Source: Anaerobacillus sp.
GTDB lineage: Bacteria > Bacillota > Bacilli > Bacillales_H > Anaerobacillaceae
DNA length: 8,651 nucleotides
Direction of reading: 5' to 3'
NCBI GenBank assembly: GCA_007120055.1
Contig: SKOL01000591.1
Span: 1-8,651, forward strand
A model generated the notes under the pieces. It was not told the DNA's origin. It ran no database searches and saw only the letters and a list, made by a program, of their open reading frames with translations. The stretch's first letter is position 1. Every line of letters begins with the position of its first letter. This document shows positions 1-8,651 of this stretch, in pieces. A program made the position numbers and the translations under genes.

Positions 1-94
1 CATTATCTAATAAGTGATAAAGCTTAAATTAGTCCGTTTAGTAAGCAATAAAATCAAAAAGCAATAGTGCTAATACCCATAAAATAGACAAACA

Positions 95-147
95 GTAGGA
101 ACGAACGTCGGTGCTTCCTTCGGTGTCCTACCCTAATCGAAGGAAGC
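95..147. repeat. Hairpin-forming intergenic repeat-like block
   Basis: The perfect 10-bp arms 113-122 (GCTTCCTTCG) and 138-147 (CGAAGGAAGC) enclose a 15-base loop. GTAGGA at 95-100 is also complementary to TCCTAC at 126-131 inside that loop, so an alternative fold or a pseudoknot is possible. No U-tract follows on either strand, which argues against a simple terminator. CTTCCTTCG and GAAGCAAGGGA from this block both recur in the same order at 729-737 and 753-763, so it may be a degenerate member of a dispersed family. The remaining sequence in 1-267 shows no convincing gene. Confidence 0.4.
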
Positions 148-267
148 AAGGGAATTGTTTTAATGGAAATGAATCTAGCCTTGAATATGTCTTTAGTATT
201 ACTAGGTTACGCAATAGATTTTAAATTGATTTTCATGATTTTTACCCGTAAAAGCTTTTGTTTTCTA

Positions 268-564
268 TTATTCAGCAAAAAGCAAATACCATCTATGTTT
301 TTCACCATTGAATATTTTATCGGCTTTAAAGTATGGTAAGAGTGACAGGATTCCTAGCACATATCTTTCACAATTACCTGGAATATTCTTTTGGCGCACT
401 TTCCCATTTTCTTTAATAACTTCAATCGATTTTTCGATATACTTACGCTTTACTGTGCGTACGTCCCCCTTATCTAAGAGAATAGTTATTTCATTGTCCG
501 ATATAGATTCAATGGCCGCTTCAGCTTCTCTCTTGAGCGTCGAAATTGAATCGCGGACACGGGG
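268..564 (-). pseudogene. 5'-truncated gene remnant, C-terminal 98 codons, unknown family
   Basis: On the minus strand the frame is open from just after an in-frame TGA (565-567) to a TAA at 268-270, giving 98 residues with no ATG and no plausible early GTG or TTG start. The translation looks like real protein. A charged helical stretch (KREAEAAIES, residues 11-20) is followed by a basic segment (VRTVKRKYIEKSIEVIKE) and a C-terminal part with IPGNCERYVLG, LLPYFKADKIFNGEKH and an aromatic end. The 5' break falls exactly in a GGGAC-type repeat, so the upstream part of the gene was probably lost there. I do not recognise the family. The plus-strand frame over the same bases is its antisense shadow. 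Confidence 0.55.
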
Positions 565-581
565 TCAGGTCCCTTGTCCCT
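555..581. repeat. GGGAC-type short palindromic repeat, copy 1
   Basis: Read on the minus strand it begins GGGACAAGGGACC and ends GTGTCC. The arms 555-563 and 571-579 pair (GGACA with TGTCC, then GGG with CCC, one mismatch) around a 7-base loop. It overlaps the broken 5' end of the gene remnant at 268-564. A related block lies at 831-851. From memory, repeats of this GGGAC...GTCCC kind are scattered between genes in many Bacillaceae and resemble REP elements; that was not checked here. Confidence 0.5.
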
Positions 582-595
582 AACGATTTTTATTT

Positions 596-618
596 AAAAA
601 AGCCCCCTTACTAGGGGG
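596..618 (-). terminator. Second intrinsic terminator-like hairpin
   Basis: On the minus strand CCCCCT (618-613) pairs with AGGGGG (608-603) around a 4-base AGTA loop. It is followed by C and then six T (601-596). The stem is short but all GC apart from one pair. It lies about 150 bases beyond the operon terminator at 745-779 and could act as a backup stop, or it may belong to whatever once preceded the truncated gene at 268-564. It would not work on the plus strand because no T-run follows there. Confidence 0.5.
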
Positions 619-744
619 AGGATGGCTATTTCTCCATAGAAAAACCACTAGTTTTCAGCAAATAAAGGATCTGATGTCCGTATAAATCGCCTACTCAACT
701 TTAATGAAGAGCCAGGAAGGTTCAAGACCTTCCTTCGTTGAGCG

Positions 745-779
745 AAACAAAAGAAGCAAGGGATTCCTCCCCTCGCTTC
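745..779 (-). terminator. Intrinsic terminator of the ECF-sugar operon
   Basis: On the minus strand GAAGCGAGGG (779-770) pairs with CCCTTGCTTC (762-753), ten pairs including one G-U, around a 7-base loop. TTTTGTTT (752-745) follows directly. It lies about 80 bases after the stop codon of the BtpA-family gene, the last gene of the operon. A further 7-bp hairpin (715-721 with 727-733) lies just beyond it but has no T-run. Confidence 0.75.
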
Positions 780-830
780 CTAATCACGCACTACCAGAAT
801 TAAACAGAAATAGAGATTTCAGTGATCTCA

Positions 831-851
831 CACCTGTCCCCTCGTCCCTCC
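831..851. repeat. GGGAC-type repeat, copy 2
   Basis: On the minus strand it reads GGAGGGACGAGGGGACAGG, closely matching the start of the copy at 555-581 (GGGACRAGGG core) but lacking the closing palindromic half. It sits just downstream of the stop codon of the last operon gene. The sequence between the two copies (582-830) holds two terminator-like hairpins and no gene that I can support. Confidence 0.4.
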
Positions 852-857
852 ATCAAC

Positions 858-1634
858 TCACCTAACCATCTCTACAAGTTCCTTAACCTTACTTTCATCA
901 AGAGGGCTAAGTTCTAAATTCGAATTGTTAGCTCTAAAATAAGAGCCAATAATTGCGCCATCTGCGTATTCTGCAATACTAGTAATATTTTTAGAGTTAA
1001 CTCCCCCGCCTACGATAAGCGGTAAAGAAGCCGTGACTTCTCTTACCCTTTTTAACATATCAATTGTCTCTTCGGCATTTTTCCCAGTAATTATTAACCC
1101 CTCTGCTTTTCCAAAGTTTATACAATTCTTTGCTTGTTCTTCAATGTTTAAACTGACCATAGACTGTAGGTTATTGTCCTTATAAATATCTGCCCATATT
1201 TTTATATTATTCGCATGAAGTTTAGTTCGATAATCTAGAACTGTAGCAGGGTCTCCTTCTAAAATACCTTCTGGTGTTACAAATGCTCCAGTAAGGTACT
1301 TAATTCGCACGAAGCTACCGTTGATTGCTTTCGCAACCGCTATTGAGCCGTTCGAATCATTCCTAGATATATTTACTCCAACCTCTAAATTAGTATTATC
1401 CTTAATACTTTTTCCGATTGCGGAGAGAGAGGCAATTGTTTCGATCTTAGTAGTTAAACTATATGGTATATCACTACTATTTTGTATCATAACACTTGTA
1501 ATTCCATACCTTTTAAAAGTTTGTGCTTCTTCTAGTGCTACCTTAGAGATCTCTTCGACTGAACTCCCGGTGTATTGGTAGCTTCCTGGAAGTGGTGGTA
1601 AGTGAATCATTGGTATTATCTTAAACTCGTTCAT
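858..1634 (-). CDS. BtpA/SgcQ-family TIM-barrel protein
   Basis: This 258-residue protein belongs to the BtpA family, named after a cyanobacterial protein needed for photosystem I and including E. coli SgcQ of a sugar operon; no reaction is established to my knowledge. Visible family marks are MIHLPPLPGS at 9-18, GVNISRND at 86-93, RIKYLTGAFVTPEGILEGD at 110-128, IWADIYKDN at 146-154, IITGKNAEE at 181-189, GGGVNSKN at 209-216 and GAIIGSYFR at 226-234. They follow the strand-by-strand pattern of a phosphate-binding TIM barrel. The start chosen is the ATG at 1634. It overlaps the PfkB stop as TAATG, has GGGAGAGG five bases upstream, and places MNEFKIIPMIHL at the N-terminus as the family expects. 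The frame stays open upstream to 1757, but that part lies over the kinase gene. Coupling to the kinase suggests it acts on the same sugar-phosphate pathway, perhaps as an epimerase, isomerase or lyase; that is inference. Confidence 0.88.
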   Translation of the reverse strand: MNEFKIIPMIHLPPLPGSYQYTGSSVEEISKVALEEAQTFKRYGITSVMIQNSSDIPYSLTTKIETIASLSAIGKSIKDNTNLEVGVNISRNDSNGSIAVAKAINGSFVRIKYLTGAFVTPEGILEGDPATVLDYRTKLHANNIKIWADIYKDNNLQSMVSLNIEEQAKNCINFGKAEGLIITGKNAEETIDMLKRVREVTASLPLIVGGGVNSKNITSIAEYADGAIIGSYFRANNSNLELSPLDESKVKELVEMVR

Positions 1635-2542
1635 TAAATCCTCTCCCATTTTATATTGTCGGACTGGTTGTAGATTTTTTGTAAAGAAACGTTGAGCAAG
1701 TTGGATACTCCAACCCCCTGTATGCATATTCCTGCAACGACTGTAGCTATTTTGCATGCTTCTACGATTGATTTTCCTTCCAGAAGATTCGCAATTAATG
1801 CACCATTATAACTATCACCAGCACCTGTAGGATCTATAACCTTTATAGGGTTCGTCTTTATATAGAAATTTTCTTCCTGATCTCTCTGAACTGCTAAACT
1901 TCCTTTTTCTCCAAGCTTTACGATAACTGTCGGCACATTAAGTTTTCTAACCTCTAACAATATATCCTTTGGAGTGGCTAACTTCTTTTTTAGCAGTAGT
2001 TCTAATTCAACATCTGAGGGCAAAAAGATATCAATATACGGTAGTAAGCTTAACAATTCCTCTTTATATTTTTCTGCAAAAAATTCAGAGGTGTCCATGG
2101 ACACGAGCATCCCTTTATCTCTTGCCTGAATAGCGAGTTTTTTTTGTATTTCTGGAATAGTTGGGCTCAAATGAATTAAGCTACTACCATTGTTATCAGA
2201 CAAGGTTGTATTAGGAGCTTGCTCTATCGTCTTCTCATACCATTCTACCTGCCCATGGCTCAGTGTATTTCTTGTGTTATGCTTATAGAACATCTTGCTA
2301 CGTCTTTGATTCCCTTTTATCTTTTCAATATGGGTAAACAAACTAGTCGATTTAACACCTATTAACTCAAGGTATTTCATAGGGTAATCCTCACAAAGCT
2401 TTGCATTTATGGAAACAGCATCATTGAAAATACTAGCGGAGGCAGCTACGTAAAGTGCTGACCCCCCCGCTAGTTCACTAGATTCCAAGTTATTATTAAC
2501 GACCGTATCTATATTTAAGTGTCCAGCTATACACAGCGACAT
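1634..2542 (-). CDS. PfkB-family (ribokinase-like) sugar kinase
   Basis: This 302-residue protein is of typical length for the PfkB carbohydrate kinase family, which transfers the gamma-phosphate of ATP to a sugar or nucleoside hydroxyl in the cytoplasm. The N-terminal substrate-site glycines are in LAGGSALYVA (25-33). The C-terminal signature DPTGAGDSYNGAL spans 237-249, with GAGD at 240-243 forming the anion hole and D243 the expected catalytic base. KLGEKGS (209-215) matches the nucleotide-binding region. The usual NxxE magnesium motif appears as SDVE (176-179), so its Asn is replaced while the Glu is kept. The ATG follows directly after the TAA of the SIS gene, with a GAGG about ten bases upstream, so translation is probably coupled. 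The pairing with a SIS enzyme and a GntR regulator parallels FrlD/FraD fructosamine kinases, but the substrate cannot be read from sequence. A seven-G run encodes part of the GG motif. Confidence 0.9.
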   Translation of the reverse strand: MSLCIAGHLNIDTVVNNNLESSELAGGSALYVAASASIFNDAVSINAKLCEDYPMKYLELIGVKSTSLFTHIEKIKGNQRRSKMFYKHNTRNTLSHGQVEWYEKTIEQAPNTTLSDNNGSSLIHLSPTIPEIQKKLAIQARDKGMLVSMDTSEFFAEKYKEELLSLLPYIDIFLPSDVELELLLKKKLATPKDILLEVRKLNVPTVIVKLGEKGSLAVQRDQEENFYIKTNPIKVIDPTGAGDSYNGALIANLLEGKSIVEACKIATVVAGICIQGVGVSNLLNVSLQKIYNQSDNIKWERI

Positions 2543-3649
2543 TTATATTCTAACCTCACTATGTCTTGTGAGCTTCCTACTTATTTTCTTGCGAAACGGG
2601 TCTACATGTGTTCTTCTGTTTGGATCTAACCCTTTTAATTGTGAGTAATAGTAGGCAATCAATTGAACAGGAACTGCGTTTATTAAAGGTGAAAATAATT
2701 CATCCGTTTCTTCTGGAATTTCTACCGTAAATTTAGATAGTTGTTCGAATTGGTTATCGTTTGTGATGGTGACAACATCGTTGCCAAACTCTCTTAAGCA
2801 GCTTCCTACTTCAAAAGAACGATACGCGCCTGTCCCTTTAGGGGAGATTAAAAATACAGGGTTGTTTTTATCAAGGATCCAGAATTCTTGGTGAGCCAAT
2901 TCTTCTGTTTCTTGCCCAATCGCCGTTTCATGGCATACTTCTAAAAATTTTGCTGCACCGTACTTGGCAATCCCGTAGTTAGGCCCGCCACCTATAAAAT
3001 ATACAGGTGCTTTTGCGTAATTTTCGTGCATATTTTTAGCAATCTTGTACGAGATTTCTTCCATGTATTCAAACTTCTCAGAGATATAATTTAGATGATT
3101 ATATAATTTATGTTTGTAAAAAGATTTCTCTTCCTCACCACAATCTGAGAGTTCTATTCCTAGTAAGTAAAGAGAACTTAATGTACTTAAAAATGTTAAC
3201 GTGCTTGGTGTCCATCCTGGTTCTTCATCAATGTTTAAAAATAAATTATAATCTGCTTCACCAAATAATTTCCCATTCACATTATTTGTTATCCCAAGCA
3301 CCGTATTACCTAATTCTTTTGTACGATATACAGCTTCTAGTGTTCTAGCTACGTTACCAGACATAGAGATACCAACTAGTGTTGTATTCTTAAGTTCTTG
3401 TGAAAAATAGTTTGAAAATTGGTATGCCGTTGTTACTTCAAACGTATGACCACAGATCTTTTTTAAAAATGGAAGTACAGCTAGCCCAGCAAAATAAGAG
3501 TCGCCACACCCTATAATAAAAACTTTCTCAGCCTGCTTATTCTCTTTTAAAGATTGCCCAATTTCTATTACTTTTGTTTCTAGCTTTTTCAAATTGTCGA
3601 CTATGTTTACTTGCTTCTTAATTTCCATTTCCATATCTAAAAAATTCAT
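2543..3649 (-). CDS. Two-domain SIS sugar-phosphate isomerase/deglycase-like protein
   Basis: This 368-residue protein has two SIS (sugar isomerase) domains, as in the isomerase half of GlmS and in AgaS, FrlB and FraB. The first domain carries FIIGCGDSYFAG (44-55) and the phosphate-binding SMSGNVARTLEA (95-106). The second starts near YFIGGGPNYGIAKYGAAK (217-234). The pair E237 and H253, in FLEV and LAHQ, has the 16-residue spacing of the catalytic Glu/His pair in GlmS and, as I recall, in FraB (E214/H230). There is no glutamine amidotransferase domain, so it is not a full GlmS. The C-terminus (GLDPNRRTHVDPFRKK, 340-354) differs from GlmS, which ends in a lysine-bearing VTVE-type tail. The likely substrate is a 6-phosphorylated keto- or amino-sugar conjugate made by the neighbouring kinase. 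It could be an Amadori deglycase, an aminosugar deaminase or an isomerase. The SD region is GGAGATGGGGAA before the ATG. Confidence 0.87.
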   Translation of the reverse strand: MNFLDMEMEIKKQVNIVDNLKKLETKVIEIGQSLKENKQAEKVFIIGCGDSYFAGLAVLPFLKKICGHTFEVTTAYQFSNYFSQELKNTTLVGISMSGNVARTLEAVYRTKELGNTVLGITNNVNGKLFGEADYNLFLNIDEEPGWTPSTLTFLSTLSSLYLLGIELSDCGEEEKSFYKHKLYNHLNYISEKFEYMEEISYKIAKNMHENYAKAPVYFIGGGPNYGIAKYGAAKFLEVCHETAIGQETEELAHQEFWILDKNNPVFLISPKGTGAYRSFEVGSCLREFGNDVVTITNDNQFEQLSKFTVEIPEETDELFSPLINAVPVQLIAYYYSQLKGLDPNRRTHVDPFRKKISRKLTRHSEVRI

Positions 3650-3669
3650 TATTTCCCCATCTCCTTTTT

Positions 3670-4470
3670 TTATAGTACACTTCTAGTAATTAATCCTAAA
3701 CCACTAACACGTAAATATATCGACACTATTATTAATAGACAAAAGCTAATAAATAGTACATAATCTTTCCTCGCCAATCGTGTGTCAGAGTAGTATGATC
3801 TAATTTTCGATGTTCCGAACCCTCTTGATTCTAATGCGATTGACATAGGCTGTAACATACTTACAAGTCTAGAAGACAGCGGTATGAGGATCGCTACATT
3901 TTTCTTCAACCGTTGGAATACAGAACCACTCTCCAACTCCAACCCTCTTGATTTTTGTGCGTTTGCGATTGTTGTTATATCTGAGATAGCCATCGGTACT
4001 AGTCGAAATGCCATCGTGAAGGTAAAGGCAACTTTATAAGGTACCTTCATCGATACTAACCCTCTAGTTATTTCTGAAAGACTAGTAAACATAAACCAAA
4101 AGATAGACATTAATACAATAGAGCTAAATCGAAGAGACATCGAAATACCTAGTAATATTCCGTTACTGTATAAATCAAAACCTCCTAGACTCCCAACTAC
4201 TTGCCCTTCTCGTAACGTAAATGGCCAGACTACTAATGAAAAGATGATAATGACTAGGGCAATCCCCCTCAAAGTAACTAATGCTCTTCCCACTGGAAGT
4301 AATGCGGCGTAACCTATGCTGATGACGCACAGAAAAATGGCGAATAGTACAAGTGGATGATTGTTAAGTAAACAAATGATAAAGATAGTGAAAAATAGTA
4401 AATTCTTTGTCAGAGGATGTAAGTGATGGATCATTGAGTCTTTTGATATGTAGTTCCCAATTGTGTTCAT
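3670..4470 (-). CDS. ecfT: ECF transporter transmembrane protein EcfT
   Basis: This 266-residue membrane protein of the CbiQ/EcfT family couples ATP hydrolysis by EcfA-EcfA' to movement of the S component. Hydrophobic segments lie near 23-35, 40-60, 68-84, 103-127 and 236-254. The two coupling-helix motifs that dock into the ATPases are present: AQKSRG at 171-176 and ESRGFG at 214-219, each with the conserved x-R-G core. The start is placed at the ATG at 4470, not the preceding TTG at 4473. It overlaps the ATPase stop as TGATG, and GGGG sits eight bases upstream. It follows the ATPase gene and precedes the SIS gene by 20 bases. A dedicated A-T-S set in one operon is typical of group I ECF transporters, which serve a single substrate. 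Confidence 0.92.
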   Translation of the reverse strand: MNTIGNYISKDSMIHHLHPLTKNLLFFTIFIICLLNNHPLVLFAIFLCVISIGYAALLPVGRALVTLRGIALVIIIFSLVVWPFTLREGQVVGSLGGFDLYSNGILLGISMSLRFSSIVLMSIFWFMFTSLSEITRGLVSMKVPYKVAFTFTMAFRLVPMAISDITTIANAQKSRGLELESGSVFQRLKKNVAILIPLSSRLVSMLQPMSIALESRGFGTSKIRSYYSDTRLARKDYVLFISFCLLIIVSIYLRVSGLGLITRSVL

Positions 4471-6257
4471 CAACTATTCCCCTTCCATGACAAGTGATTT
4501 AAAAATCCTTGTACAGTTAATACTGGTTCGGTGAAACCGAATTCTTCTAACTGTGCGGCAACTTGCGTGATCTGAGGTGGATATAAATGTGCCTTTTCTA
4601 ATTTTTCAATGTTCGTAAACACTTTATGAGTCACATCGTCTTCGTCGACTTCTCCGTTGTTGACTACAATTGTTCTCTCTGCATATTTAGCCACAAAATT
4701 CATATCATGAGTGATTAGAACTACTGTTTTTCCTTGTTTCTGTATGTTAGTTAAAACCTGCCCTACTAATTGACAATTACTATAATCCAGCCCAGTAGTT
4801 GGCTCATCTACTATTAAAACATCTACATCCATAGCAACAACTGATGCTATTATGAGGAGTTGTTTTTGAGCTCTATTTAACATAGTTGGATGTTGATCTT
4901 TGACTTTTTCCAGGTCACATAGTTTTAAGGCAAATTGCGTTTTCTCTGCAATTTGTTCCGCTGTCCAACCTAAATTTTTCGGTCCAAACATAATTTCTTT
5001 CTCTACTGTATCCTCAAAAATTTGATGGTTAGGGTTTTGAAACACATATCCTACATTTCTAGATAATTGAGCGACCGTTTTTTTATTCGTTGGTATCCCG
5101 TTAACGAACACTTTGCCTTTCGTAGGTTTTAACAAGCCGTTAAAATGCTTTACTAATGTCGTCTTTCCCGTTCCATTCTTCCCTAAGACAGCTACAAATT
5201 CACCTTTTTTAATGGAGAGGTTTATATCGTGTAGAATTTGATCACTAGTTTCATAGGAAAAGGACATTTGTTCCACCTTAATTACCTCTTCTGTTTCATG
5301 GGTAGGAGTCAGTTTAGCAGAACTTTTAACGACTAACTCCTCCTTGTTCTTCACAAAGTAATTTCTTAAGACGGATATTGCTTCTTCTACTGATACGAAT
5401 ATAGGGATATCTAAACCCAGTTTCTTTAGTTCATTCCATAGAACTACTACTTCTGGAACATTAATATGCATATCCAACAGCTTATCTGTATCTTTTAATA
5501 CTTCTCTTGTATTATGAAAGGCAACTAGCTCTCCTTTATTTAATACGAGTAATTTATCCGCAAATCGTACTAAATGTTCTAAGTCTTGTTCAATTAGTAG
5601 AATTGTTTTCGTTTGGCTTTTCTTTAATTTTTCTACTATTTTAATTACATCGTATTTTCCAACAGGATCAATTTCTGCTGTTGGTTCATCAAGTATGATG
5701 ACTTCAGGGCCACAAATAATAGCAGAAGCTATAGCTAACCTTTGTTTTTCCCCACCTGAGAGACGATGGGGATGCTTTTTTAAGAATTCTTCTGATAGAC
5801 CAACCGCATCCATTGCCCATTTCATCTTTTCTCTAATTACTTCTGGAGGAATGTTATAATTTTCAGGGCCAAAAACTAAATCTTCTTCCACAGAAGATCC
5901 TATAATTTGTGATTCTGGATCTTGAAAGGTCATAGATACGAACCTAGAAATCGTACTAACATCACTTTCTAAGATATCTTTCCCACAAACGTCAAGTGCC
6001 CCCCCCCAGGCCCCATCTAACTTATGGGGCACTATTGCTTTAATTGAGAGGCCTAGCGTCGTTTTTCCAGCTTCTGCAGGTCCGATAATACCTATTAATT
6101 CTCCGCTTTGAAACTCATAATTTAACTTCTTTAGAGCTAGTTTTTCACTATCATTATATTTAAAGGAATGATTTTTAGCTTTTACCTTTGTTTGTACATT
6201 TTCTCCTTCTTTCAAAGGGCTAATTTCGATGTTTAGTTTTGTTACCGCCTGATTCAT
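4470..6257 (-). CDS. Fused double ECF ATPase (EcfA-EcfA') with one degenerate site
   Basis: This 595-residue protein carries two ABC ATPase domains in one chain and powers the ECF importer. Domain 1 has Walker A GPAEAGKTT (59-67), Q-loop FQDPESQ (111-117), signature LSGGE (166-170), Walker B VIILDE (186-191) and, where the switch His is expected, IEQD (222-225) with Q224. Domain 2 has Walker A GKNGTGKTT (359-367), FQNPNHQ (406-412), signature LNRAQ (460-464) instead of LSGGQ, Walker B LIVDE (481-485) and an intact ITHD (H517). In an ABC dimer each ATP site joins one Walker A/B/H-loop with the partner's signature. Site 1 is therefore altered at three motifs and site 2 is canonical. Each domain ends in an ECF-type tail with a VPEVV or PPQIT stretch (near 267 and 560). 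The SD is AGGAGG eight bases before the ATG. A nine-G run encodes part of residues 84-87. The length fits fused YkoD-like ECF ATPases. Confidence 0.93.
   Translation of the reverse strand: MNQAVTKLNIEISPLKEGENVQTKVKAKNHSFKYNDSEKLALKKLNYEFQSGELIGIIGPAEAGKTTLGLSIKAIVPHKLDGAWGGALDVCGKDILESDVSTISRFVSMTFQDPESQIIGSSVEEDLVFGPENYNIPPEVIREKMKWAMDAVGLSEEFLKKHPHRLSGGEKQRLAIASAIICGPEVIILDEPTAEIDPVGKYDVIKIVEKLKKSQTKTILLIEQDLEHLVRFADKLLVLNKGELVAFHNTREVLKDTDKLLDMHINVPEVVVLWNELKKLGLDIPIFVSVEEAISVLRNYFVKNKEELVVKSSAKLTPTHETEEVIKVEQMSFSYETSDQILHDINLSIKKGEFVAVLGKNGTGKTTLVKHFNGLLKPTKGKVFVNGIPTNKKTVAQLSRNVGYVFQNPNHQIFEDTVEKEIMFGPKNLGWTAEQIAEKTQFALKLCDLEKVKDQHPTMLNRAQKQLLIIASVVAMDVDVLIVDEPTTGLDYSNCQLVGQVLTNIQKQGKTVVLITHDMNFVAKYAERTIVVNNGEVDEDDVTHKVFTNIEKLEKAHLYPPQITQVAAQLEEFGFTEPVLTVQGFLNHLSWKGNS
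5999..6030. repeat. Nine-base C/G homopolymer beside a 7-bp hairpin inside the ATPase gene
   Basis: Positions 5999-6007 are nine consecutive C on the plus strand (nine G in the coding strand), encoding W-G-G in domain 1 of the ATPase. Next to it GCCCCAT (6010-6016) pairs with ATGGGGC (6024-6030) around a 7-base loop. The hairpin lies upstream of the G-run in the mRNA, so it is not arranged like a classical programmed -1 frameshift signal. The tract could slip during replication. Confidence 0.6.
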
Positions 6258-6290
6258 CCTATTCCCCTCCTGCTGTAGCTACATTATTGC

Positions 6291-6995
6291 TTACATATCT
6301 ACTTCCTCTTTATCATCTAACTTATTTATTTTCTTTTTCCCTTGGAAGGATTGCCAATCTAGGTTTTGTCTCTTCACGATTGGATAAAGTAACTTAAGGA
6401 ATATTGGTCCAAGAATTAAAACCGCTACGATTCTGTTCATTAATAATGCAGTTGGCTCTGTTGTCCATGCTACCTCTGTAGGAAGAGTTCCTGTAATGGA
6501 AATAACAAAAGGCATAACTAGCATTCCTAATAAGGCACCTCCAACCACTCCCGCTACAAATTGGAACCAACTAATAAATGTTTTTAATGAATAGTCCTTC
6601 ATAATTTTATAAGGAATGTATGCAAACAGAAAGTTTCCAAGCACGCCACCTAAACTTGCCGGAGTTACAAACCCTTTAAATATATCGGATATTAAATTTC
6701 CTAAAGCTGCACCAAATGCTCCAGGAATTCCGAAGACAATACCTAGTACAGGTGTAATAGCAGCTCCTGGTCTAAAGCTAATCCACCCAAAGCGAATTGG
6801 CCCAGTTAGTATAGCTGCTCCTGCATTTAAGGCAGCCGCAATTGCTACTACTGTTAAGGCTGTTGACCCCCATACGATATGGTGTTTTTTTAACCTTCCT
6901 TTCGTTATGTCATACTTAAATGCCAAGAAGAAGAAAATAAATACAGCTGCAAAAGTAATACCACCAACAATATTTAATAAAGTGAAAATCGTCAT
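6291..6995 (-). CDS. ECF transporter substrate-binding S component
   Basis: This 234-residue membrane protein is the specificity subunit of the importer. The stretch FGWISFRPGAAITPVLGIVFG (69-89) followed by GAALGNLISD (95-104) is the pattern seen in S components of the QueT-like and related families: loop with Arg-Pro, then a Gly-rich helix ending in GN. Hydrophobic segments fall near 4-26, 39-63, 78-102, 113-130, 139-168 and 183-207. The small-residue helix AIAAALNAGAA (51-61) contains AxxxA spacing (51/55 and 54/58), used by S components to pack on EcfT. The segment at 4-26 looks like an additional N-terminal helix before that usual helix 1. The C-terminus is short, basic then acidic, and cytoplasmic. 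The SD is a run of six G nine bases before the ATG, and the gap to the ATPase gene is 33 bases. The substrate cannot be assigned from sequence; the downstream enzymes suggest a sugar conjugate or aminosugar-like compound. Confidence 0.82.
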   Translation of the reverse strand: MTIFTLLNIVGGITFAAVFIFFFLAFKYDITKGRLKKHHIVWGSTALTVVAIAAALNAGAAILTGPIRFGWISFRPGAAITPVLGIVFGIPGAFGAALGNLISDIFKGFVTPASLGGVLGNFLFAYIPYKIMKDYSLKTFISWFQFVAGVVGGALLGMLVMPFVISITGTLPTEVAWTTEPTALLMNRIVAVLILGPIFLKLLYPIVKRQNLDWQSFQGKKKINKLDDKEEVDM

Positions 6996-7019
6996 ACAAA
7001 AATTCCCCCCTAATTATAG

Positions 7020-7033
7020 TGTAAGCACTTACA
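7020..7033. promoter_or_regulatory. cre-like palindrome (candidate CcpA site) between regulator and S component
   Basis: TGTAAGCACTTACA has perfect 6-bp arms around CA. It matches the Bacillus cre pattern TGWAANCGNTNWCA at 13 of 14 positions; the mismatch is A for G in the central CG. It lies 25 bases upstream of the S-component start and just after the stop of the regulator gene, where CcpA could block elongation or initiation. It could instead be a GntR operator, since the arms also carry GT...AC ends. Catabolite control fits a carbohydrate pathway. Confidence 0.5.
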
Positions 7034-7051
7034 ATTCTGAGCCAATTAGAA

Positions 7052-7777
7052 CTATTTGTTAAATAGCTCTATGAAGAATCTAGTTGTATCTCCTTTAAAT
7101 ATAGAAGTGGTGTATTCAATTGGCGTTACATTGTCGCTAAAACTAGTTCTTGTCACCTTAAAAACTGGCATGTTTTGGCCTATACTTAACCTATCTTGCG
7201 CTTCTAAGTTAGGAAAATCAATCTCTATTGACTCGGATGCCTTATAAATATCTAGTTGTAACTTATCTTTAAGAACCCTATACAATGAACCATTTAAATC
7301 ATAATTCTTTAATTGTCTTCCAAAATCCATTGAAACAGTAGTTATAGTAAGAACTGATGCAACTCCGTCAATATACCTAATTCGTTTCACACGGAGAATC
7401 GTATCTCCTTCGTTTACTTTCAATACATCTGCATCTACTTGATTTGCAATATCTTCAAAAATAGATATTACCTTTGTAGAGACAGACTTTCCTTCTAACT
7501 CCATTTCTTCTGTAAAACTCTTAAATTGTACAAAACCAATTGTTTCCTTATTCTTCTTAATAAATGTACCTTTTCCTCTAATGTTCTCAATGTAGCCCAT
7601 CTGATTCAGTTCGGTTAGTGCCTGCCTTACAGTAATTAAGCTGACGTTATACCTATCCGCTAACTCCTTTTGTGTTGGTAGTTGAGTCCCCACCTCCCAT
7701 TTTCCACTTTTAATTTCATCCTCCAGATGATGTAATACTTGAATGTAAAGTGGAGTTTGATTTGATCTAGAAATCAT
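7052..7777 (-). CDS. GntR/HutC-family transcriptional regulator with UTRA domain
   Basis: This 241-residue regulator has an N-terminal winged helix (about 5-75): PLYIQVLHHLEDEIKSGKW, LPTQKELADRYNVSLITVRQAL (33-54) as the recognition region, and the wing GYIENIRGKGTFI (61-73). Residues about 85-240 form a UTRA ligand-binding domain of the HutC subfamily, seen in regions such as ILRVKRIRYIDGVAS (127-141). HutC-type regulators sense sugar phosphates or related metabolites; FrlR, FraR and NagR are relatives by family. The start is set at ATG 7777, with GAGGTG (7789-7784) six bases upstream. A GTG at 7786 is in frame but lies inside that Shine-Dalgarno sequence. It heads the transporter operon in the same direction with a 56-base gap before the next gene, so it probably controls its own operon in response to the imported compound or its phosphate. 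Confidence 0.92.
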   Translation of the reverse strand: MISRSNQTPLYIQVLHHLEDEIKSGKWEVGTQLPTQKELADRYNVSLITVRQALTELNQMGYIENIRGKGTFIKKNKETIGFVQFKSFTEEMELEGKSVSTKVISIFEDIANQVDADVLKVNEGDTILRVKRIRYIDGVASVLTITTVSMDFGRQLKNYDLNGSLYRVLKDKLQLDIYKASESIEIDFPNLEAQDRLSIGQNMPVFKVTRTSFSDNVTPIEYTTSIFKGDTTRFFIELFNK

Positions 7778-7793
7778 TTGCGTCACCTCATAA

Positions 7794-7808
7794 AAAGTTT
7801 ATAACTTT
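7794..7808. promoter_or_regulatory. Candidate operator for the GntR regulator
   Basis: AAAGTTTATAACTTT is a perfect 6-bp inverted repeat with a 3-base centre. Its core GTTTATAAC resembles the GT..TA..AC shape of HutC-type operators, although the spacing is one base longer than the 8-base consensus I recall. It lies just after the predicted -10 box, about where transcription would start, which suits a repressor. A second AT-rich palindrome, TATAATATTATA (7816-7827), overlaps the -10 region. Confidence 0.4.
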
Positions 7809-7816
7809 ATAAAATT

Positions 7817-7845
7817 ATAATATTATACTTTTTAAAAACAGTCAA
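7817..7845 (-). promoter_or_regulatory. Predicted sigma-A promoter of the operon
   Basis: On the minus strand TTGACT (7845-7840) and TATTAT (7822-7817) are separated by exactly 17 bases. The -35 box matches TTGACA at five of six positions and the -10 box matches TATAAT at five of six. Transcription would start near 7810, about 33 bases before the regulator ATG. Overlapping TATAAT boxes at 7827-7822 and 7819-7814 have poorer spacing (12 and 20). No other equally good promoter was seen between the operon genes. Confidence 0.6.
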
Positions 7846-7850
7846 TATTA

Positions 7851-7876
7851 AAAATTTTTAAAATTCTAAAAATTTT
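7851..7876. repeat. AT-only inverted repeat upstream of the operon promoter
   Basis: AAAATTTTTA (7851-7860) and TAAAAATTTT (7867-7876) are a perfect 10-bp inverted repeat around a 6-base loop. It lies directly upstream of the -35 box. It could act as an AT-rich UP element, a bending or protein-binding site, or a weak end for the minus-strand gene that stops at 7904. With no GC in the stem, a strong terminator is unlikely. Confidence 0.4.
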
Positions 7877-7903
7877 ATTTTGAAATGGCTGAGCTATTAA
7901 AGA

Positions 7904-8268
7904 TTAGTCATAAAATTGTCTGTTACCTTCTGGAACGAGTTGTATAATTTTTGATGTGTCTACACCTGGATATAAACTATTTTTATTTCTTTCAGTCCAA
8001 AGTAACCCCCGAACCAATAGAAACCTCTAAAAAACTTTAAAATTATAGCTTCTGATTTTTCGAATGTAATACTATGATAGTCATTCTTTGTAATATGAGC
8101 ATCTAGTTGAATAAAAGGAATATACTTCTCAGAGATCCTTACGAGTGAACTTGAAAGCGTTGCTAAAGTTTCACTTTGAACAAGTGAATTCCAAGCCCTA
8201 CATCCTTGTCCGAAAAAAATTATTTTTTTTACAAAAGTAACCTTATATGGTGTGGTGTATTCTCTCAA
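7904..8268 (-). pseudogene. Small unknown gene, probably frameshifted near 8006-8010
   Basis: One minus-strand frame runs from a TTG at 8268 to a stop at 7960-7962 (102 codons), with text such as AWNSLVQSETLATLSSSL and LVRISEKYIPFIQLDAHI. A second frame, running to TAA at 7904-7906, gives a protein-like tail, TERNKNSLYPGVDTSKII then QLVPEGNRQFYD. Adding one G to the five-G run at 8006-8010 joins the two as FYWFGGLLWTERNK and gives about 121 residues. I take this as a single gene with a one-base deletion, or a sequencing error there. The start is uncertain: TTG has only a weak ribosome-binding site, and the frame is open a little further upstream. The A/T homopolymers at 8214-8230 could hide another shift. 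I do not recognise the family. It is divergent from the XRE gene at 8306. Confidence 0.4.
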
Positions 8269-8305
8269 TCCATTTAATAATTGGACTTGAAAGGACTAAT
8301 GATAA

Positions 8306-8563
8306 ATGGATAATCAATTGGGAAATCACTTAAAAGAATACATAGGACGAGCTGTAAAGCAATTAAGAAACGACGCAGGTCTTACACACGAGGAATTGGC
8401 TTTCCACTCTGGAATAGGTGAAAAATACATAAGTAAGATTGAACGTGGCATAGTTAAAAATATCACTCTTGATACATTAGATGATATTAGCCGTGGTCTA
8501 AAAACCGATCCGTCCGATTTAATTGCCATAGCACAAAAACTAGAAAGAGATTGTGAGGATTAA
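8306..8563 (+). CDS. Small XRE-family helix-turn-helix regulator
   Basis: This 85-residue protein is a single HTH_3/Cro-C1 type DNA-binding domain. Helices run from GRAVKQLRNDAGLTHEELAF (about 14-33) through HSGIGEKYISKIERG (34-48) to the closing helix TLDTLDDISRGLKTDPSDL (54-72). EELAFHSGIGEKYISKIE fits the usual helix-turn-helix core. The short acidic tail (LERDCED) leaves no room for a ligand or catalytic domain, so it probably binds DNA as a dimer like SinR or phage Cro. The ATG at 8306 has AAAGGA about nine bases upstream. It is the only clear plus-strand gene here and diverges from the probable pseudogene at 7904-8268, which it could have regulated. Its target is unknown. No strong terminator is visible in 8564-8651. 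Confidence 0.8.
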   Translation: MDNQLGNHLKEYIGRAVKQLRNDAGLTHEELAFHSGIGEKYISKIERGIVKNITLDTLDDISRGLKTDPSDLIAIAQKLERDCED

Positions 8564-8651
8564 TACTTTTCACTCCGAATTATTAGTTTAGTAAAAAACT
8601 AACCCTCTGGAGTTACCTTCTAATTAATCCTCTCTTCGCAAAAACTTCCGA

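Follow-up and report, generated by a model that had tools for sequence, protein, structure and literature searches.

The question addressed here is which compound is taken up and degraded by the seven-gene operon of an Anaerobacillus sp. contig (GenBank assembly GCA_007120055.1, contig SKOL01000591.1, positions 1 to 8651; the whole stretch of 8651 nucleotides is referred to as the window). The operon (858–7786, minus strand) encodes a GntR/UTRA regulator, the S component of an energy-coupling factor (ECF) transporter, a fused EcfA-EcfA′ protein, EcfT, an SIS enzyme, a PfkB kinase, and a BtpA-family protein. It is read here as a self-contained mobile system for the uptake and degradation of a purine-nucleoside-type compound, either a nucleoside or its sugar moiety, and this assignment is considered about evenly balanced between right and wrong.

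An earlier note on this DNA had described a catabolic gene set combined with a complete, dedicated group I ECF importer and an additional BtpA protein, and this description was confirmed: all seven genes are present as a catabolic-looking set, and the importer is complete, with S, T, and two ATPase domains within one operon. Group I features are seen in the fold of the modeled S component and in the XRG motifs of EcfT, which occur as two SRG coupling motifs (residues 175 and 216). The ATPase fusion carries Walker A motifs at residues 59 and 359, together with the signatures LSGGE (residue 166) and a degenerate LNRAQ (residue 460). The start of gntR was assigned to the ATG at 7777; the longest open reading frame (ORF) begins at 7786.

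The combination is conserved beyond the window. PfkB, SIS, and BtpA (the trio) were found together at nine loci, the window counted, and it is the importer that is exchanged between them. An ECF importer is present at five trio loci (the window, L001, L009, L010, and L040), a BMP (PnrA-like) ABC importer at three (L012, L042, and L013 on plasmid pMHb of Mesorhizobium huakuii); at L011, the BtpA gene being located at the end of the contig, no importer type could be assigned. The ATPases are separate at L009, L010, and L040 and fused in the window. Partial sets were found at three more loci, namely BtpA-SIS in the actinomycetes L019 and L020 and SIS-PfkB in Rhizobium (L021). The two BtpA-SIS pairs (Streptosporangium plasmid, L019 2698–11074; Nonomuraea, L020 9096–10909) lie in apparent natural-product clusters, one of which includes 7-deazaguanine genes.

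The SIS family itself is rare. Its profile matched five of 398 genomes of the phylum and four of 398 in an almost identical second draw, which was centered on genome G287 and did not include Halobacillus. Elsewhere, one of 22 genomes was matched in the class of G287, three of 154 in the class of G258, and 1/1, 1/12, and 2/42 in the orders; each count includes the genome on which the search was centered. Beyond the phylum draw, the search added one more genome in the order and another in the class of G258. Four plasmid records matched the family profile, and all of them were read (plasmid loci were read for four records out of listings of 88 and 4, being those of the smaller listing). For BtpA, five hand-picked plasmid records out of 190 were read.

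The Pfam QueT family (PF06177) matches the window S component at 44.2 bits (cut-off 33.7), and the copy in Halobacillus is labeled as QueT family by NCBI; a sister S component (P0044) falls below the same cut-off at 27.6 bits. PF06177 matches above the cut-off occur in 156 of 299 phylum genomes and score 111–167 bits among the matches listed. In profile–profile comparison, the clade of the window S component matched 28 canonical QueT ORFs with 2% and a group of S components of about 266 residues, linked to MtnA and MTAP, with 99.5% (E 8e-23). In a tree with canonical QueT and five of the approximately 266-residue relatives, the S components of the window, its close kin, L009, L010, and L040 formed one group (support 99/95). 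When L088 and L094 were added, both joined this group (93/90) with its inner order unresolved, and canonical QueT stood apart at 100/100. Despite its 99.5% profile match to the methylthioadenosine (MTA)-salvage group, the window S component lies outside the ten-row Mts group in the tree. Grouping with QueT, set beforehand in the earlier note as counting against an uncharacterized pathway, thus holds for the Pfam cut-off (44 bits) but neither for the profile match (2%) nor for the tree, in which the branch is separate. The S alignment comprised the window and 16 of 21 listed matches; 14 of the 28 canonical QueT ORFs (from 30 loci) were used in the trees and all 28 in the profiles, and the L040 protein was used without its first 20 residues in the first tree and with a later start in the second.

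The genetic context of the relatives is consistent with this placement. Lower-scoring S matches (<300 bits) numbered 18 in the 398 genomes; eight of these loci were read, and seven are ECF operons that also hold genes for methylthioadenosine or adenosylhomocysteine, L094 being different. At L088, L089, L091, and L092, genes named by NCBIfam comprise MtnA, the MTAP/MTIP family, class II aldolase, AhcY, and DeoB, accompanied by a deaminase-like amidohydrolase below its cut-offs; at L090, L093, and L095 the methylthioadenosine/adenosylhomocysteine genes were assigned by eye. Among S components outside the module, that of L088 is nearest (102.8 bits); its gene is flanked by an MtnA-like gene on one side and an MTAP-family gene on the other. 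The ATPase is fused (about 570 residues) in seven of the eight loci read (MTA-type and L094), as in the window. The profile of the module S component exceeded 300 bits in three of 398 phylum genomes, all among the five SIS carriers, with the next best match at 127 bits; these three were part of the profile, so the result means an absence of free-standing copies and is not a blind prediction. Three S components occur together in one genome (G287), namely a canonical QueT, one of the MTA type 29 kb away, and the one of the module; they therefore probably differ in ligand. Taken together with the neighboring genes described below, the kinship of the S component to methylthioadenosine-salvage ECF operons points to a nucleoside-type substrate. 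At L094 (2385–9794, genome G271), another ECF set with an S component from this superfamily is accompanied by a PfkB-like kinase, a class I aldolase-like protein and, by eye, ADP-ribosylglycohydrolase-like and alcohol-dehydrogenase-like ORFs.

Several loci with the complete or partial trio lie beside genes of purine, pyrimidine, or nucleoside metabolism. At L009, DeoC (274 bits, cut-off 117) follows the trio, and PucR regulator, FdrA (529 bits, cut-off 433), AllG, and AllH genes are found nearby. L012 contains a dihydropyrimidinase (498 bits, cut-off 393), along with two genes that score below their equivalog cut-offs, for a xanthine-dehydrogenase-like subunit and an NCS1-like permease; at L013 a dihydropyrimidinase is encoded on the opposite strand about 3 kb beyond the importer. 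In Rhizobium (L021), a gene of the purine nucleoside phosphorylase/uridine phosphorylase family follows SIS immediately, and at L019 QueE, a QueD-type enzyme, and FolE are located within about 7 kb of BtpA-SIS.

The BtpA-family protein passes the family cut-offs (PF03437, 194.1 vs. 30 bits; TIGR00259, 182.2 vs. 153.4 bits); the equivalog for BtpA in photosystem I biogenesis (NF045918) was not reached (138.4 bits, cut-off 400). Its model (built from two sequences, mean predicted local distance difference test (pLDDT) 65) is a TIM barrel that includes a GGG region of the kind typically seen in phosphate-binding barrels, and Foldseek returned geranylgeranylglyceryl phosphate synthase/PcrB, HisF, ribulose-phosphate epimerase, and orotidine monophosphate decarboxylase with TM scores of about 0.5. 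A lysine just after strand 4 (K112) is present in nine of nine trio BtpAs and in none of eight others (two from gene clusters, where they pair with SIS, and six without SIS, SgcQ included). In transaldolases, the Schiff-base lysine is located on strand 4, which makes an aldolase-like role of BtpA a testable guess. No enzymatic role of BtpA/SgcQ is mentioned in the titles and opening abstract lines of the papers listed. In the haloarchaeal plasmid loci L015 (8983–10753) and L017 (7974–9694), BtpA adjoins a PfkB gene on the opposite strand, with no annotated SIS gene nearby.

From these observations we infer the substrate and every chemical step of the following scheme. The S component would bind a nucleoside-like ligand, the import of which would be driven by EcfT and EcfAA′. 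PfkB may then phosphorylate the primary hydroxyl group of the sugar, and the SIS enzyme may interconvert the phosphorylated aldose and ketose, with release of the base or amine if this is still attached. The resulting phosphoketose would be cleaved by BtpA, whose TIM barrel has a phosphate-binding end; a Schiff base on K112 may be involved in this step. The overall kinase–isomerase–lyase route would resemble the MTAP/MtnA/class II aldolase route encoded beside the sister S components, and the GntR/UTRA protein is predicted to repress the operon until a phosphorylated intermediate builds up. The more far-reaching proposal is an undescribed nucleoside or nucleoside-sugar degradation route with PfkB, an SIS enzyme of a new clade, and BtpA in place of phosphorylase, MtnA, and class II aldolase. 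BtpA would act as a Schiff-base phosphoketose lyase, the ECF S components would form a new nucleoside-type class, and the system would spread on conjugative elements; as a whole, this proposal is regarded as rather doubtful.

A number of observations weigh against the assignment to a nucleoside-type compound and against its chemistry. Purine, pyrimidine, or nucleoside genes accompany the trio often but not always, an association counted with no matched random control; at L010, L040, and L011 no nucleoside genes were seen by eye. Nucleosidase, phosphorylase, MtnA, and deaminase genes are all missing from the window operon, and none of them is an invariant partner of the trio. The BMP importers are no proof of a nucleoside substrate, and the Rhizobium locus L021 has another type of ABC importer and no BtpA gene within the 21 kb inspected. 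With the inner order of the S group open after addition of L088 and L094, the module S components are not shown to form one clade. As to BtpA, the two gene-cluster proteins that pair with SIS (L019 and L020) have glycine at position 112, K112 lies in a low-confidence region of the model (pLDDT about 36–39), and monophyly of the trio BtpAs was not established (16% of bootstrap trees; approximately unbiased test p 0.215); the aldolase-like function is a guess by analogy, and its chemistry would be conjectural.

Among the alternatives, degradation of an Amadori product or amino sugar, in which PfkB forms the 6-phosphate and SIS deglycates or deaminates it, was the pathway suggested by the earlier note, for which GntR, PfkB, and SIS were the defining trio of frl/fra-type operons. 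The set does resemble E. coli frl (frlA-B-C-D-R), and the SIS enzyme retains the GlmS-type catalytic residues K234, E237, and H253 (48 of 48 family rows, along with the family-specific D50 and E249), the chemistry of which is known on 6-phospho amino sugars. The proposed kinship did not hold up in the trees. The window SIS belongs to a clade of 48 rows (99/97) apart from E. coli FrlB, AgaS, GlmS, and three FrlB-like proteins from Bacilli (taken from three of 61 genomes), which for their part form a separate clade with E. coli FrlB (100/98). It matched GlmS with 90 bits and two of the Bacilli proteins with 37 and 20 bits; the third Bacilli protein, E. coli FrlB, and AgaS were not matched, and E. 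coli FrlB lacks the GlmS-type lysine. The kinase falls into a SIS-linked PfkB clade (94/98) that does not include E. coli FrlD, RbsK, PsuK, FruK, KdgK, YdjH, and Gsk; its scores are 45.8 bits to YdjH, 38.0 to RbsK, and 23.6 to FrlD, and the fructoselysine-6-kinase model gave 42 bits (cut-off 247). The GntR/UTRA regulator is shared with Amadori operons, but also with many other sugar operons. Since SIS falls outside FrlB and the kinase outside FrlD, GntR, PfkB, and SIS in combination do not suffice to diagnose an Amadori pathway. ECF and BMP importers, S-component kin in MTA salvage, and purine and pyrimidine neighbors also speak against this pathway, which is compatible with the SIS chemistry but judged unlikely. 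For these comparisons, 16 of 42 listed matches (window included) were aligned for SIS; P0032 and P0041 (amidotransferase-type) were omitted from the tree, GlmS was cut to its isomerase half, and P0042, which lies beside GlmS in the tree, was also left out of the residue counts, giving the 48 rows. The PfkB tree contained ten of 59 proteins, that of L011 without its 80 N-terminal residues.

A free pentose, deoxy-sugar, or glycosylated vitamin, processed by the same kinase–isomerase–lyase logic with no nucleobase involved, would agree with the occurrence of BtpA and PfkB without SIS beside sugar-type ABC importers (L016 and L018), with SgcQ in an operon of the phosphotransferase system (PTS) type, and with DeoC after the trio at L009; against BMP importers and purine genes at several trio loci, and S-component kin in adenine-nucleoside salvage, it is distinctly unlikely. 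Salvage of queuosine or of another 7-deazapurine precursor or nucleoside can appeal to the Pfam match and NCBI name given above and to the QueE, QueD-type, and FolE genes near BtpA-SIS in the Streptosporangium plasmid. The weak profile match to canonical QueT, the separate branch, and the coexistence of all three S types in G287 speak against it; moreover, no queuosine genes were found in the window and no riboswitch at E≤1 in 6900–8400 (nor at the gathering threshold over the whole window), so that this substrate appears quite improbable. Uptake and degradation of a purine-nucleoside-type compound is kept as the preferred reading.

The apparent mobility of the system is seen in a close relative. 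In a species-genome scan for close SIS relatives, one locus was found, in Halobacillus sp. A1, with all seven genes in the same order and 88.4–93.2% protein identity to the window (391 codons with silent differences only vs. 230 changed). The SIS gene was present in one of 101 genomes around Halobacillus, namely in Halobacillus itself. Its operon lies between an IrrE-like peptidase gene, which adjoins a phage-type integrase, and a helix-turn-helix (HTH) gene (XRE-like by eye), and the 20 kb past it encode a type IV secretion system coupling protein, a TraG-like ATPase that narrowly passes its cut-off (26.5 bits), a MobL relaxase (468 bits), and an ArdC-like protein. Judged from gene content, the operon is an apparent cargo of an integrative conjugative element. 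The window flanks showed no convincing similarity to those of Halobacillus, and no plasmid copies of the S component were found in the plasmid search. A prophage or viral origin was rejected: no relative was found in the viral_contigs collection, conjugation genes are present in the Halobacillus flanks instead, and the 27 records of the phages collection with SIS-type matches all show <60% identity (22–27% for the 20 listed).

The positions of the genes and candidate control sites are collated in the table. Both palindromes are conserved between the window and L001 although the spacers have otherwise largely diverged; AAAGTTTATAACTTT is kept there together with an AT-rich promoter-like stretch, and TGTAAGCACTTACA (TGTAAG-nn-CTTACA) is found at the same place (5621–5634). 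We take TGTAAGCACTTACA to resemble a catabolite-responsive element (cre), which would fit carbon-catabolite control. Outside the operon, a small HTH_3 (XRE-type) protein is encoded next to it at 8306–8563 (plus strand), a common situation on mobile elements; it has no similarity to the Halobacillus flanks. At 271–564 (minus strand) there is a possible gene remnant, with 98 open codons ending in a stop and an interruption on the upstream side close to a GGTCAGGTCCCTTGTCCC-type stretch; short strings of similar sequence are found again near 836–850.

Table. Positions of the operon genes, candidate control sites, and related Halobacillus features (window positions unless a locus is named).
Feature	Position	Strand	Remarks
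GntR/UTRA (HutC-type) regulator	7052..7777	-	PF00392 65.7 bits; PF07702 103.2 bits
ECF S component, closer to those of MTA salvage than to QueT	6291..6995	-	
EcfA-EcfA′ in a single fused protein, 595 aa	4470..6257	-	
EcfT	3670..4473	-	PF02361 99 bits
Two-domain SIS enzyme	2543..3649	-	GlmS-type catalytic K234, E237, H253; family-specific D50, E249
PfkB kinase, SIS-linked clade	1634..2542	-	PF00294 108.7 bits
BtpA/SgcQ-family TIM-barrel protein, trio-specific K112	858..1634	-	PF03437 194.1 bits
Palindrome AAAGTTTATAACTTT before gntR	7794..7808		candidate operator (putative)
Palindrome TGTAAGCACTTACA between gntR and S gene	7020..7033		candidate operator or cre-like (CcpA) site
Halobacillus operon	L001 4878-11769		between IrrE-like peptidase gene and HTH gene
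Element genes around Halobacillus operon	L001 2655-4400, 11990-19104, and L024		

If the proposed route is correct, the range of ECF transporters would grow from vitamins and metals to include a substrate for catabolism, a ligand could be named for an S-component group currently filed under QueT, and the automatic names "QueT transporter" and "glucosamine--fructose-6-phosphate aminotransferase" would be corrected on such proteins. A Schiff-base phosphoketose lyase would be the first enzymatic function for the BtpA family. This family is widespread, and its role becomes testable through a trio that keeps BtpA with the kinase and isomerase while the importer is swapped. Nothing was found that links BtpA to SIS, PfkB, or ECF importers, or ECF importers to fructoselysine, in the literature searched, which excluded most subscription papers. 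ECF-served salvage operons are already known; as far as searched, this enzyme set and S-component group are undescribed.

Compared with E. coli frlABCDR, the operon has in common the GntR/UTRA regulator, the PfkB kinase, and the two-domain SIS enzyme, but the clades of SIS and PfkB differ, frl has a permease (in Bacilli an ABC importer) instead of an ECF transporter, and it contains no BtpA. The BtpA protein shares its TIM-barrel family (PF03437) with SgcQ, which belongs to a PTS operon and does not have the trio lysine. The S component shares Pfam PF06177 and the S-component superfamily with the QueT proteins; the canonical ones are mostly shorter (150–200 aa in most listed frames), score 111–167 bits as opposed to 44, and form a separate branch. 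The loci with GntR, PfkB, SIS, BtpA, and BMP genes (Mesorhizobium huakuii pMHb, L012, and L042), of which no published description was found in the literature searched, have the same trio and regulator family and differ by their BMP-type ABC importer. The MtnA/MTAP-linked ECF operons (L088–L093 and L095), which we take to be of the "MtsTUV" type, share a related S component (99.5%), EcfT, a dedicated ATPase that is fused except in L088, GntR-type regulators (by phmmer, in L089, L090, L092, and L095), and an isomerase-plus-aldolase logic. Their enzymes are MtnA, MTAP, class II aldolase, a deaminase-like enzyme, or AhcY, whereas the window, from which MtnA and MTAP are absent, has PfkB, SIS, and BtpA.

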